Translations under genes and position numbers: made by a program
NCBI RefSeq assembly: GCF_000336695.1
Contig: NZ_AOMC01000152.1
Span: forward strand, 121,882 to 185,881
DNA length: 64,000 nucleotides
From: Halococcus morrhuae DSM 1307
Lineage (GTDB): Archaea > Halobacteriota > Halobacteria > Halobacteriales > Halococcaceae
Reading direction: 5' to 3'
The notes under the pieces: generated by a model
Database searches by the model: none
Seen by the model: only the letters and a program-made list of their open reading frames with translations
Told to the model about the DNA's origin: nothing
Part shown: one piece after another, positions 1,223-4,663 of the stretch
How positions within the stretch are numbered: the first letter of the stretch is position 1
Layout: the number at the start of each line of letters is the position of its first letter

Positions 1223-1744
1223 TCACTCTCCATCGATCAGTTCACGACGTCGACCCTTCGGCACCTGTGAGCGGAGCTCGCCGTCGATGAACAGACCGAC
1301 ACCGAGCGGTTCGCGCTCGCCGGCGAGGTCGTGGGCCGCGATCAGATAGCCCCAGTCGCCGTCCCAGTCGATGGGTTGGTCCTCGCCGGCGACGAACCGC
1401 CGCGCTTCGGCATCGGCCAACTCGACGACGTTTTTCTCGGCGTGTCGCCCGAAGCGCTGGACTGCGTTCGTGGTCGGTTTCCAGTGCTCCTGGCGCGTGC
1501 GGAGAAACGTCATCCCGAGCGCCTCGGCTTCGAGCGGGCTCGCTACTGCGCCACGAAACGCCCAGAGCTTTCCCCCACCTTTCTCCCAGAACGAGTAGTT
1601 CTCAAAGATTTCGGGGGCGACCGCGTAGCGTTCGTCCCAGAAATCGAGGACTTCCTGGCGCGTGGCTCGGCCCTCGACGACGCGCTCGTCGGCGGTAGCG
1701 GGCAGGCGGTCAAGCTGCGAACCGTCGTTCGTTCGGTCGCTCAT
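1223..1744 (-). CDS. Stand-alone RsmF/NSUN PUA-like RNA-binding subunit
   Basis: The product has 173 residues. Its second half has the signature of the PUA-like C-terminal domain that bacterial RsmF-type rRNA m5C methyltransferases carry: KPTTNAVQRFG, then NVVELADAEARRFVAGE, GYLIAAHDL, PLGVGLFIDGEL and a terminal QVPKGRRRELI. The N-terminal part (EVLDFWDERYAVAPEIFENY...FWEKGGGKLW) matches the start of that module. The start is placed at ATG 1744 because it overlaps the stop of the upstream NSUN methyltransferase by four bases (ATGA), a typical translational-coupling junction; a longer frame would run far into that gene. I infer that catalytic and RNA-binding halves of one enzyme are encoded as two coupled polypeptides. 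In public annotation this family appears as a haloarchaeal domain of unknown function (possibly DUF7122). Confidence 0.75.
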   Translation of the reverse strand: MSDRTNDGSQLDRLPATADERVVEGRATRQEVLDFWDERYAVAPEIFENYSFWEKGGGKLWAFRGAVASPLEAEALGMTFLRTRQEHWKPTTNAVQRFGRHAEKNVVELADAEARRFVAGEDQPIDWDGDWGYLIAAHDLAGEREPLGVGLFIDGELRSQVPKGRRRELIDGE

Positions 1745-2649
1745 CCGCCGACCTCCACCTTCGCGCAGAAAAAGCCGCCCGTATCGTTCAGGTGGGGGTA
1801 GATCCGTTTGGCCTTCCGCACGCTCTCGTCGAACGCTTCGCCCTGCCACTCGGTGACGCCGGGGCGGGTTTCGAGATCACAGGAGAACTCGACGAGTCGG
1901 CAGTCCTCGGCCGAAAGAACGCTGTCGAGCACGGCCTCGTTCTCCTCGGGCGCGAACGTACAGGTCGAGTACACCACGCTCCCTCCGGAACGGGTCGCCT
2001 GCACCGCCCGCCGGAGGATCGATTCCTGCGTTGCGGCGATGGAGTCGATATATTCGAGCGACCACTCGTCGAGCGCGTCCGGGTTCTTCCGGATCGTCCC
2101 CTCGCACGAACACGGCGCGTCCACGAGCGCGCGATCGAACGCGTCGAAGTCGAACGGCTTGAGCGAGTAGTTCCGTGCATCGCGGTTCGTCACCGCCATC
2201 GAGGTGACGCCGAGGCGTTCAGCGTTGAATCGGAGTGCCGAGAGCCGGCCCAAACTCCGATCGTTCGCGACGATCGTCCCCTCGTCGCCGGCGAGTGCGG
2301 CGAGCTGGGTTGCCTTCCCGCCGGGGGCTGCACAGGCCGCCCAGACGCGCTCACCGGGATCGGGATCACAGACGAGCGCCGGCAGGGTCGAGACCTCCTC
2401 CTGACCGTGCAGCCAGCCGTGATAGGCCCCCCACGTCCGCCCCGGGCTGGTCGAATCGAGTCTGAGAAGTCCCGGATGCCACTCGACGGGCTCGTACTCC
2501 ACACCCTCGTCGTCGAGTGCGTCCATCGCTCGCTCGGGCGTCGCCTTGATCCCATTCACCCGGACGACCGACGGGAGCGGGCGCTCGCAGGCCGCACGGA
2601 ACGCCGAGAAATCGTCGACGAGCGATTCGTACCGTTCGAGAACGTCCAT
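1741..2649 (-). CDS. NOL1/NOP2/Sun family RNA m5C methyltransferase
   Basis: This 302-residue SAM-dependent methyltransferase should form 5-methylcytosine in rRNA or tRNA. The SAM-binding motif I is AAPGGKATQLAAL (about 107-119). Both catalytic cysteines of the NSUN family are present: Cys180 in DAPCSCEGTIRKNP and Cys230 in VVYSTCTFAPEENE. The N-terminal part (PSVVRVNGIKATPERAM) is the usual RNA-contacting pre-domain. The protein is shorter than bacterial RsmF/RsmB enzymes because it lacks the C-terminal PUA module, which appears to be supplied by the overlapping downstream gene. The start ATG at 2649 diverges from the PAC2 gene, with 80 bp between them. Substrate specificity cannot be read from the sequence. 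Confidence 0.9.
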   Translation of the reverse strand: MDVLERYESLVDDFSAFRAACERPLPSVVRVNGIKATPERAMDALDDEGVEYEPVEWHPGLLRLDSTSPGRTWGAYHGWLHGQEEVSTLPALVCDPDPGERVWAACAAPGGKATQLAALAGDEGTIVANDRSLGRLSALRFNAERLGVTSMAVTNRDARNYSLKPFDFDAFDRALVDAPCSCEGTIRKNPDALDEWSLEYIDSIAATQESILRRAVQATRSGGSVVYSTCTFAPEENEAVLDSVLSAEDCRLVEFSCDLETRPGVTEWQGEAFDESVRKAKRIYPHLNDTGGFFCAKVEVGG

Positions 2650-2729
2650 TAGGGAACCATCCGTCCGGGGTCGCTTGTCGATTTCGGAGTCGGGGGAGCC
2701 TTAAGGTGCCCCGTGATGAAGATGCCAGC

Positions 2730-3467
2730 ATGGCACATGTCGACGTTGCAGCGGACGATATCGAACTCGACGAACCGACGCTCGTCGAGGGGCTGCCTGG
2801 CGTCGGGCTGGTTGGCAAGATCGTCGCCGACCACCTCGTCGATGCCTTCGAGATGGACTACTACGCCGGCATCCACTGCAGCGGCGTCCCGGAGGTCGGC
2901 GTCTATCGCGGCGAGCGCTCCGCCCTCAGACCGCCCGTGCGCCTCCACGCCGACGCCGAACGAGACCTCCTCGTGCTCCAGAGCGACGTCCCGGTCTCAC
3001 CGAGCGAGGCGACCGAGTTTGCCACCTGCATCACCGGCTGGCTCGCCGACAACGACGTCACCCCGCTCTACCTCAGCGGCCTGCCCGACCAGTCCGACGA
3101 GGTACCCGAAGTCTACGGGATATCGACCGGCGCGGGCAACGACCTGCTCGACGACGCCGGCATCGTCCCGCCCGCCGAGGGCGGTCTCGTGAGCGGCCCG
3201 ACCGGCGCGCTGCTCTATCACGCCGAGCAAACCGACCTCACGAGCGTCGGCCTCATCGCCGAGACCAACCCGCAGTTCCCCGATCCCGAAGCCGCCCGCG
3301 CGATCCTCGAACACGGCATCGAACCGCTCACCGGCATCGGGATCGACACGTCCGATCTCGTCGAACAGGCTGAGGAGATCCAGGAAGCCCGCGAACGCCT
3401 CGCCGAACGAATGCACCAGGCCGACGAGGAGAGCTCACAGGCCGAGCCGATCCGGATGTTCCAATAG
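2730..3467 (+). CDS. PAC2-family proteasome-assembly chaperone-like protein
   Basis: The 245-residue product belongs to the PAC2 family (archaeal PbaA/PbaB-like), which folds like purine nucleoside phosphorylase and assists 20S proteasome assembly. Family hallmarks are the opening LVEGLPGVGLVGKIVADHLV, the central LLVLQSDVPV and SPSEATEFA, and GLPDQSDEVPEVYGI followed by a GPTGALLYHAEQ-type segment. The C-terminus is acidic and helical (VEQAEEIQEARERLAERMHQ), a possible coiled coil or partner-docking tail. The start is set at ATG 2730 rather than the in-frame GTG at 2706, because a TTAAGG TATA-like box at 2701-2706 lies 24-29 bp upstream, the spacing of a leaderless haloarchaeal transcript. 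Copy A of the dispersed repeat follows the stop, preceded by a T5 tract at 3472-3476. Confidence 0.85.
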   Translation: MAHVDVAADDIELDEPTLVEGLPGVGLVGKIVADHLVDAFEMDYYAGIHCSGVPEVGVYRGERSALRPPVRLHADAERDLLVLQSDVPVSPSEATEFATCITGWLADNDVTPLYLSGLPDQSDEVPEVYGISTGAGNDLLDDAGIVPPAEGGLVSGPTGALLYHAEQTDLTSVGLIAETNPQFPDPEAARAILEHGIEPLTGIGIDTSDLVEQAEEIQEARERLAERMHQADEESSQAEPIRMFQ

Positions 3468-3769: not shown

Positions 3770-4663
3770 TCAGCGCTCGGTCGTCACTTCGCAGCCGTCC
3801 TCGGTGACGATGACGGTGTGCTCTTTCTGACTGACGAGATTGCCCGCGCTCTCCTTGAGTACGGGATAGCTGTGGACGACGTTCTGGCGTTCGAGCCGGC
3901 GCAGCGCCATCTCCGGCCGATCGACGTCGAGCCAGCGCGTCGCGAACGGGAGCGTTCGGAACTGGTCGGTAATCTGATCGAGCGCCTCGCGTGCGTCGCG
4001 GTTCCTGACCGAGCGTTCGTTTTCGAGCGCGAAGATCTCCGCCTCGTTACCCTCGCCGACCTTGCCGCTGCCGTCGGTGGCGAACGGCTCGATGGCGACC
4101 ACGTCGCCGGCTTCGAGCTCGACGCTCTGGCTCACCGCGCGGTTCGGGATGTTCGGCGGCGTGTGCTGTTCCCAGTGGGCGAGCCCGTGCCCGGTGAGAT
4201 TGACGACCGGGTTATAGCCGTAGTCGTCGATGACCTCCTCGATGCGTGCACCGATCTCGCCCGTGCTAACACCGTCCTCGACGAGTTCGAGCGCGGCCTC
4301 CAGCGCGGCTTCTGGCGCTTCGGCGAGGTCGGAATTGCCCGAGAGATCGACGGTGACGGCCGTATCGGCGAGCCAGCCATCGACGTGGACGCCGATGTCG
4401 AGGTTCACCATCTCCTCGCCGAATGTGGTATCCTCGTCGATGCTCGGCGTCGCGTGGGCGGCCTCCTCGTCGATCGAGATGTTGACCGGGAAGGCCGGCT
4501 CGCCACCCAGTTCCCGCGTGCGCTCCTCGGCCCACCGGGCGATTTCGAGGTGGCTCACGCCGACCTCGACGCGCTCTGCGGCCTCGTCGCGCACCTGTGC
4601 GAGGATCTCGCCCGCCTCGCGACATTTCTCGTGCTCCTCGTCCGAGAGGTCCACGTCGCTCAT
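3770..4663 (-). CDS. map: Methionine aminopeptidase, type II
   Basis: This 297-residue M24-family metallopeptidase removes the initiator methionine in the cytoplasm. The metal ligands are recognisable: the two aspartates in NLDIGVHVDGWLADTAVTVD, His in LTGHGLAHWEQH, Glu in VVAIEPFATDGSG and the last Glu in DGCEVTTER at the C-terminus. An insertion of about 60 residues between the His and first Glu segments and the end of the protein marks the type II (archaeal/eukaryotic) form. The start ATG at 4663 gives the standard N-terminus (MSDVDLSDEEHEKCREAGEIL). The asparaginase gene on the same strand ends 40 bp upstream, so the two may be co-transcribed. Confidence 0.95.
   Translation of the reverse strand: MSDVDLSDEEHEKCREAGEILAQVRDEAAERVEVGVSHLEIARWAEERTRELGGEPAFPVNISIDEEAAHATPSIDEDTTFGEEMVNLDIGVHVDGWLADTAVTVDLSGNSDLAEAPEAALEAALELVEDGVSTGEIGARIEEVIDDYGYNPVVNLTGHGLAHWEQHTPPNIPNRAVSQSVELEAGDVVAIEPFATDGSGKVGEGNEAEIFALENERSVRNRDAREALDQITDQFRTLPFATRWLDVDRPEMALRRLERQNVVHSYPVLKESAGNLVSQKEHTVIVTEDGCEVTTER

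Follow-up and report, generated by a model that had tools for sequence, protein, structure and literature searches.

A free-standing DUF7122/PUA protein as the likely RNA-binding part of a two-gene archaeal tRNA m5C methyltransferase

In the portions of the literature drawn on here, the archaeal tRNA m5C methyltransferase Trm4, represented by P. abyssi PAB1947 and Haloferax volcanii HVO_1594, is treated as a single protein that is helped by archease, and these portions mention no PUA gene (PMC2584109, PMC3017900, PMC3973293). In contrast, the stretch of 64,000 nucleotides of Halococcus morrhuae DSM 1307 that we analyzed (the window) carries a catalytic gene of this kind that overlaps a second gene for a PUA-like protein (Table 1). 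An earlier note on this DNA had read the pair as an RsmF-type methyltransferase split over two genes and working in trans, which raises the question of whether the two proteins indeed belong to one enzyme and, if so, which RNA that enzyme modifies. Our analysis makes it probable that the overlapping genes specify a two-part archaeal tRNA m5C methyltransferase in which RNA binding falls to the DUF7122/PUA protein.

Table 1. Features of the gene pair, in window positions
Feature	Position	Strand	Basis
Catalytic NSUN/COG0144 protein (m5C RNA methyltransferase of HVO_1594/Trm4 type), 302 aa	1741..2649	-	ORF, PF01189, tree
Cys180 codon, motif DAPC	2110..2112	-	
Cys230 codon, motif YSTC	1960..1962	-	
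ATGA stop/start overlap of both genes	1741..1744	-	ATGA/GTGA/TGATG in 30/30 loci of order
DUF7122 + PUA-like protein (partner), 173 aa, free-standing counterpart of RsmF C-terminal module	1223..1744	-	ORF, Pfam, AF2, Foldseek, VIA
DUF7122 (PF23437), pre-PUA part of partner, residues 5-77	1514..1732	-	Pfam, AF2, VIA; model ordered from ~residue 30
PUA-like region PF13636, residues 114-167, sub-threshold	1244..1405	-	Pfam, AF2, VIA

The NSUN reading frame opens with an ATG at 2649 and matches PF01189 over residues 92 to 298 (2.7e-47) and, just above the cut-off of 27, the ferredoxin-like PF22458 over residues 13 to 67 (27.4 bits), besides weaker additional Pfam matches. Both catalytic cysteines are in place, at 180 and 230, and Pfam returned no match beyond residue 298; reading frame, Pfam, and motif check thus agree with the description of a catalytic protein devoid of a C-terminal domain. 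No other PF01189 gene was found in the genome, which is 94.9% complete. Scores against the NCBIfam equivalogs fell below the cut-offs for RsmF (NF008898, 186.2 bits against 588; NF041567, 162 against 690) and likewise for archaeal Trm4 (NF040814, 194.5 bits against 550).

The partner reading frame (1744..1223) counts 173 residues from the ATG at 1744, and the NSUN stop codon TGA (1743-1741) lies within the ATGA (1744-1741) that starts it, as the earlier note had stated. Its match to PF23437 (DUF7122; residues 5 to 77, 5e-30, 104 bits) exceeds the gathering threshold of 27, and the Methyltranf_PUA family PF13636 matches residues 114 to 167 with 24.0 bits, below the curated threshold of 27.6. 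PF13636 matched all 22 of 22 partner family members at an E value of 0.1 or less and exceeded the cut-off in 46 of the 196 genomes sampled from the phylum of the window, while DUF7122 was matched in Haloferax only among 14 control genomes. The motifs that had suggested an RsmF C-terminal domain are present in the translation, and the supposition that this half would be filed under unknown function proved correct, given its Pfam name. At the junction, an ATGA, GTGA, or TGATG was kept in all 30 loci of the order of the window, the window included. The three codon positions of the partner differ at 0.246, 0.241, and 0.447 in these 30 sequences, 4 of which have a miscalled N-terminal extension. 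Because the junction is kept, the codon positions show this pattern, and further groups of archaea have the same pairing (see below), the gene pair is not a chance arrangement.

When the window partner was compared directly with RsmF of E. coli by BLASTP, the match was not significant (E value, 0.13), so the link between the two rests on profiles and structure. A profile of 22 partner relatives found, among PDB sequences, first E. coli RsmF/YebU (2frx, residues 353 to 468, 5e-7) and the related 3m4x (residues 308 to 454, 9e-7), followed by the C-terminal region of NSUN2 at an E value of 0.07. A profile of 78 rows gave 3m4x at 2.8e-7 and RsmF (2frx) at 1.9e-6, with NSUN2 at 0.12 and ranked behind an S3 protein. 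An AlphaFold2 model of the window partner, built with 77 relatives, reached a pLDDT of 85.2 and a pTM of 0.79, with low confidence at about residues 1 to 30. All seven PDB chains that Foldseek matched to this model at an E value of 1e-3 or less were RsmF (2frx, 3m6u/v/w, 3m4x), and NIP7 and TruB came next. With VIA, residues 24 to 167 of the model aligned with residues 319 to 455 of 3m4x (Z, 12.7; 130 residues; 3.0 Å) and with residues 313 to 454 of Thermus RsmF 3m6v (Z, 10.1); E. coli RsmF itself scored 7.8, and other free pre-PUA/PUA proteins, including NIP7, scored 8.3 to 10.5. The match covers the whole pre-PUA and PUA module of RsmF. From the VIA and Foldseek alignments, therefore, DUF7122 corresponds to the pre-PUA part, and the partner represents the C-terminal module of RsmF as a protein of its own. 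The PUA family of RsmF also goes under the name COG3270. The proposal that the second gene encodes an RsmF-like C-terminal domain is thereby upheld by profiles, Foldseek, and VIA, with RsmF as the closest PDB match of the structure predicted for 1223-1744.

Bacterial RsmF (E. coli 2frx; Thermus 3m6u-w) and the related 3m4x likewise consist of an NSUN core followed by a pre-PUA and PUA module, which is an RNA-binding architecture. RsmF carries this module in the same polypeptide, whereas in the window it comes from a gene of its own that overlaps the NSUN gene, so that an RsmF-like enzyme is here divided into a catalytic gene and a PUA gene. Among eukaryotic proteins, the tRNA m5C enzyme NSUN2 (Trm4) offers a looser parallel, in that the partner profiles touch the region after its catalytic core at E values of 0.07 to 0.13, below significance; unlike the archaeal pair, it carries this region fused in cis, and NSUN2 was absent among the fold matches listed by Foldseek and VIA for the partner model. 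NIP7/UPF0113, which has a role in ribosome assembly and in eukaryotes pairs with Nop2, resembles the partner in fold (Z, 8.4 to 10.2) and is likewise a free pre-PUA/PUA protein.

The two genes are widely found together. In a single draw of 196 genomes from the GTDB phylum of the window (Halobacteriota), a partner, recognized by PF23437 and/or PF13636, was present in 76, all of them among the 113 genomes with PF01189 above the cut-off (Fisher P, 3e-26, kinship ignored). One further genome (G080), in which PF23437 matched below the cut-off (9.9e-4, 20.8 bits) at positions 16 to 47 only and PF01189 had no match, was left out of the 76. The NSUN gene lies directly upstream of the partner in 69 of the 76 partner-bearing genomes: 32 of 33 in the order of the window, 27 of 31 in family f12, which we take to be Archaeoglobaceae, 8 of 8 in family f24, and 2 of 4 others. 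Where the genes are unlinked (G004, G057, G134, G147, and G178), a Trm4-type NSUN gene occurs elsewhere in the genome, and two genomes (G118 and G159) have an NSUN gene of Trm4 type in which no partner was detected. The co-occurrence anticipated by the earlier note is thus real and extends to unlinked cases. In another unlinked genome (G133), the Trm4-type NSUN frame (L169:476-1822) is extended at the N terminus by about 150 residues that have no Pfam match.

The pairing also extends beyond this phylum. In a scan of named genomes, most of them metagenome-assembled, the best 80 of 88 partner loci were kept, and their labels comprise Archaeoglobi, Methanophagales, Thermoplasmatota, Thermococci, Hydrothermarchaeota, Methanomethyliaceae, and DPANN as well as the Asgard groups Sigyn-, Jord-, and Freyarchaeota. 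The Methanomethyliaceae and Thermoplasmatota labels may reflect misbinned contigs, as the NSUN tree places these sequences among Archaeoglobaceae and beside Methanophagales. Among these best 80 of 88 loci, an NSUN gene lies within 100 bases of the partner in 47 and within about 2.6 kb in 8 more, and 24 of the 25 genomes without NSUN in the locus have PF01189 above the cut-off elsewhere. The two surveys overlap, since at least six contigs (G081, G141, G112, G122, G004, and G133) are of equal length in both, and their counts are therefore not additive. A fusion of the two genes in archaea, for which the earlier note had proposed to look, was found in none of the best 80 of 88 named loci and in none of the examined loci of the phylum sample.

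A quick tree was made of 109 of 146 collected NSUN domains, the other 37 having been thinned out beforehand. One side of a branch with an SH-aLRT support of 97 holds all 78 of 78 paired NSUN domains together with 8 that are near a partner, 6 that are unlinked, 2 that are partnerless, the domain of locus L166, and E. coli RsmF. Apart from these stand a group of six that includes NIP7-paired genes (support, 99) and seven long proteins (support, 97). Because all paired rows fall on one side of the branch, the partner travels with one NSUN lineage. The clade of the window NSUN also holds the partnered Thermococcales NSUNs and is separate from other NSUN paralogues. A second gene pair of this kind was noticed in family f16 (G009, G019, and G029), where a different NSUN gene overlaps a free PUA gene by 8 bases in three of three genomes (L163:814-1359, L164:1904-2431, and L165). 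The two PUA genes scanned are NIP7/UPF0113, and the arrangement is reminiscent of Nop2-Nip7; both the NSUN clade and the PUA family differ from those of the window pair.

Given this architecture, the pair might be a split RsmF proper that methylates 16S rRNA. Catalytic domain and partner both match RsmF, and E. coli RsmF falls on the partnered side of the tree, although its place there is unsure because its long branch is joined with another long one. H. volcanii, however, has a single COG0144 member, HVO_1594, and lacks m5C in rRNA while having it in tRNA at positions 39, 40, 48, and 49 (Grosjean 2008, PMC2584109); upon deletion of HVO_1594, for which a growth defect is tabulated, m5C disappears from bulk tRNA (PMC3017900). 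We take the window NSUN to be the orthologue of HVO_1594, since it is the sole NSUN found in its genome and groups within the clade of its order. Its NF008898 score (186 against a cut-off of 588) and the tRNA maturation genes that surround the pair in Thermococcales likewise speak against a split RsmF. On these published Haloferax data, we reject the rRNA substrate and regard a 16S rRNA enzyme as highly improbable at this locus. Of the designation RsmF-type, the architecture stands, through the fold and sequence of the partner, and the rRNA substrate falls in favor of tRNA. Bacterial RsmF is one chain acting on 16S rRNA; the window pair comprises two genes and most likely acts on tRNA. Also consistent with this assignment, the Thermococcus NSUN at locus L122, a Trm4 catalytic protein with the same partner, passes the NF040814 equivalog for tRNA (cytosine(49)-C(5))-methyltransferase (611.8 against a cut-off of 550).

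The gene order at locus L122 is archease, NSUN, partner, and rtcB, with archease and rtcB named by sequence and supported by Pfam in other genomes. In 10 Thermococci/Thermococcales loci, archease lies upstream in nine and rtcB downstream in the same nine, at a distance of about 1.5 kb in L123. The best 30 Thermococcaceae loci, with flanks of 1.5 kb, showed Trm4 upstream in 25, archease upstream in 24, and rtcB downstream in 21. The tRNA m5C methyltransferase gene has indeed been described as a sometime member of the archease-rtcB operon (Desai 2014, PMC3973293). In five loci (L112, L120, L121, L124, and L127), the rtcB match breaks near residue 98 or 128, which suggests that RtcB of Thermococcales is interrupted there, for example by an intein.

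The position between trm4 and rtcB, together with the similar fold of the free PUA proteins NIP7 and MCT-1, could mean that the partner is an independent RNA-binding or tRNA maturation factor, for instance in ligation or folding, that is merely coexpressed with trm4 and makes no contact with the methyltransferase. We find this unlikely in view of its closest fold and sequence relatives, which are C-terminal parts of NSUN enzymes, and of its distribution. Among 94 Thermococcaceae genomes, the partner was detected in 82 and a Trm4 orthologue (E value of 1e-70 or less) in 81; 80 have both genes, 11 neither, 2 the partner only, and 1 Trm4 only (Fisher P, 1e-11, kinship ignored). The two partner-only genomes have a 30-residue fragment (G303) and a locus cut short with a Trm4 tail beside the partner (G313, L224), and the Trm4-only genome (G305) has a fragment at a contig end. 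The partner accompanies Trm4 even when unlinked: in G225-G231, the two genes lie at different places, and both are present in seven of seven genomes (Trm4 identity, 66 to 68%). Conversely, archease and rtcB persist side by side in all seven of G306-G312 without the two genes normally found in between. In the remaining 4 of the 11 genomes with neither gene, archease is missing too, as is rtcB in 3, which makes it probable that these genomes are incomplete. The co-occurrence in G225-G231 is the better evidence; the joint loss in G306-G312 may be one deletion in one clade and supports a joint function weakly. In the window genome, too, archease and rtcB are adjacent on another contig (L162, G000:C154:18753-19154 and downstream), away from the trm4 pair. 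Two further observations concern these genomes: an NSUN paralogue of 40 to 42% identity occurs in six of G306-G312, the exception being G311, and the partner match at G228:C1:941036-941434 contains one internal TAG codon.

It is also conceivable that the catalytic protein is self-sufficient at all sites and that the partner does no more than keep it soluble or stable in a chaperone-like manner, as reported for archease. PAB1947 is reported to make m5C in tRNA in vitro, in an account that, in the parts used here, names no PUA partner (PMC2584109), and archease is said to improve its specificity and solubility (PMC2584109, PMC3973293). In RsmF, however, the pre-PUA and PUA module belongs to the enzyme chain itself and has an RNA-binding architecture, and a role as solubility helper therefore strikes us as quite improbable.

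A likely reading is that the pair acts in trans as one two-gene enzyme, and the best reading of the partner is that of an overlooked RNA-binding subunit of archaeal Trm4. The NSUN protein would be the catalytic part, orthologous to HVO_1594, and the stop/start overlap may couple translation such that both proteins are made together. The probable binding target of the partner is tRNA, the catalytic protein, or both. By binding RNA beside the catalytic domain, as the RsmF module does, it most likely sets which cytosines are methylated (39, 40, 48, and 49 in Haloferax). We also modeled the Archaeoglobus pair L107 as a single read-through chain, with the TGA read as W. This model was of low confidence (pLDDT, 72.6; pTM, 0.57); both of its halves matched RsmF (E value, 2e-29 over 469 columns), but the domains were placed unlike in RsmF (TM, 0.40 to 0.44; rmsd, about 24 Å). 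The model thus carries no weight either way on whether a complex forms, although the lack of an RsmF-like docking would fit the independent factor discussed above.

A more far-reaching version of the two-part enzyme, to which we would give an even chance, holds that the archaeal tRNA m5C methyltransferase depends for its specificity on the DUF7122/PUA protein as an obligatory subunit, overlooked so far and conserved in haloarchaea, Archaeoglobi, Thermococci, Asgard archaea, and DPANN. Archaea would then keep as two genes an enzyme whose parts are fused in bacteria (RsmF) and perhaps in eukaryotes (NSUN2), and the P. abyssi enzyme, when studied alone, would owe its implied imperfect specificity to the missing subunit. 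In the open-licence PMC literature, we recognized no paper on the partner or on a test of it. The analysis proposes a function for DUF7122 and for the unlabeled gene that Thermococcales carry between archease and rtcB, replaces an rRNA label by a tRNA label, and makes it directly testable whether the choice of cytosines by archaeal Trm4 depends on a second protein.

With regard to the neighborhood of the pair in the window, a divergent gene at 2706-3467 reads by eye like a PAC2-type protein, and a gene at 3770-4663 appears, also by eye, to be methionine aminopeptidase-like.
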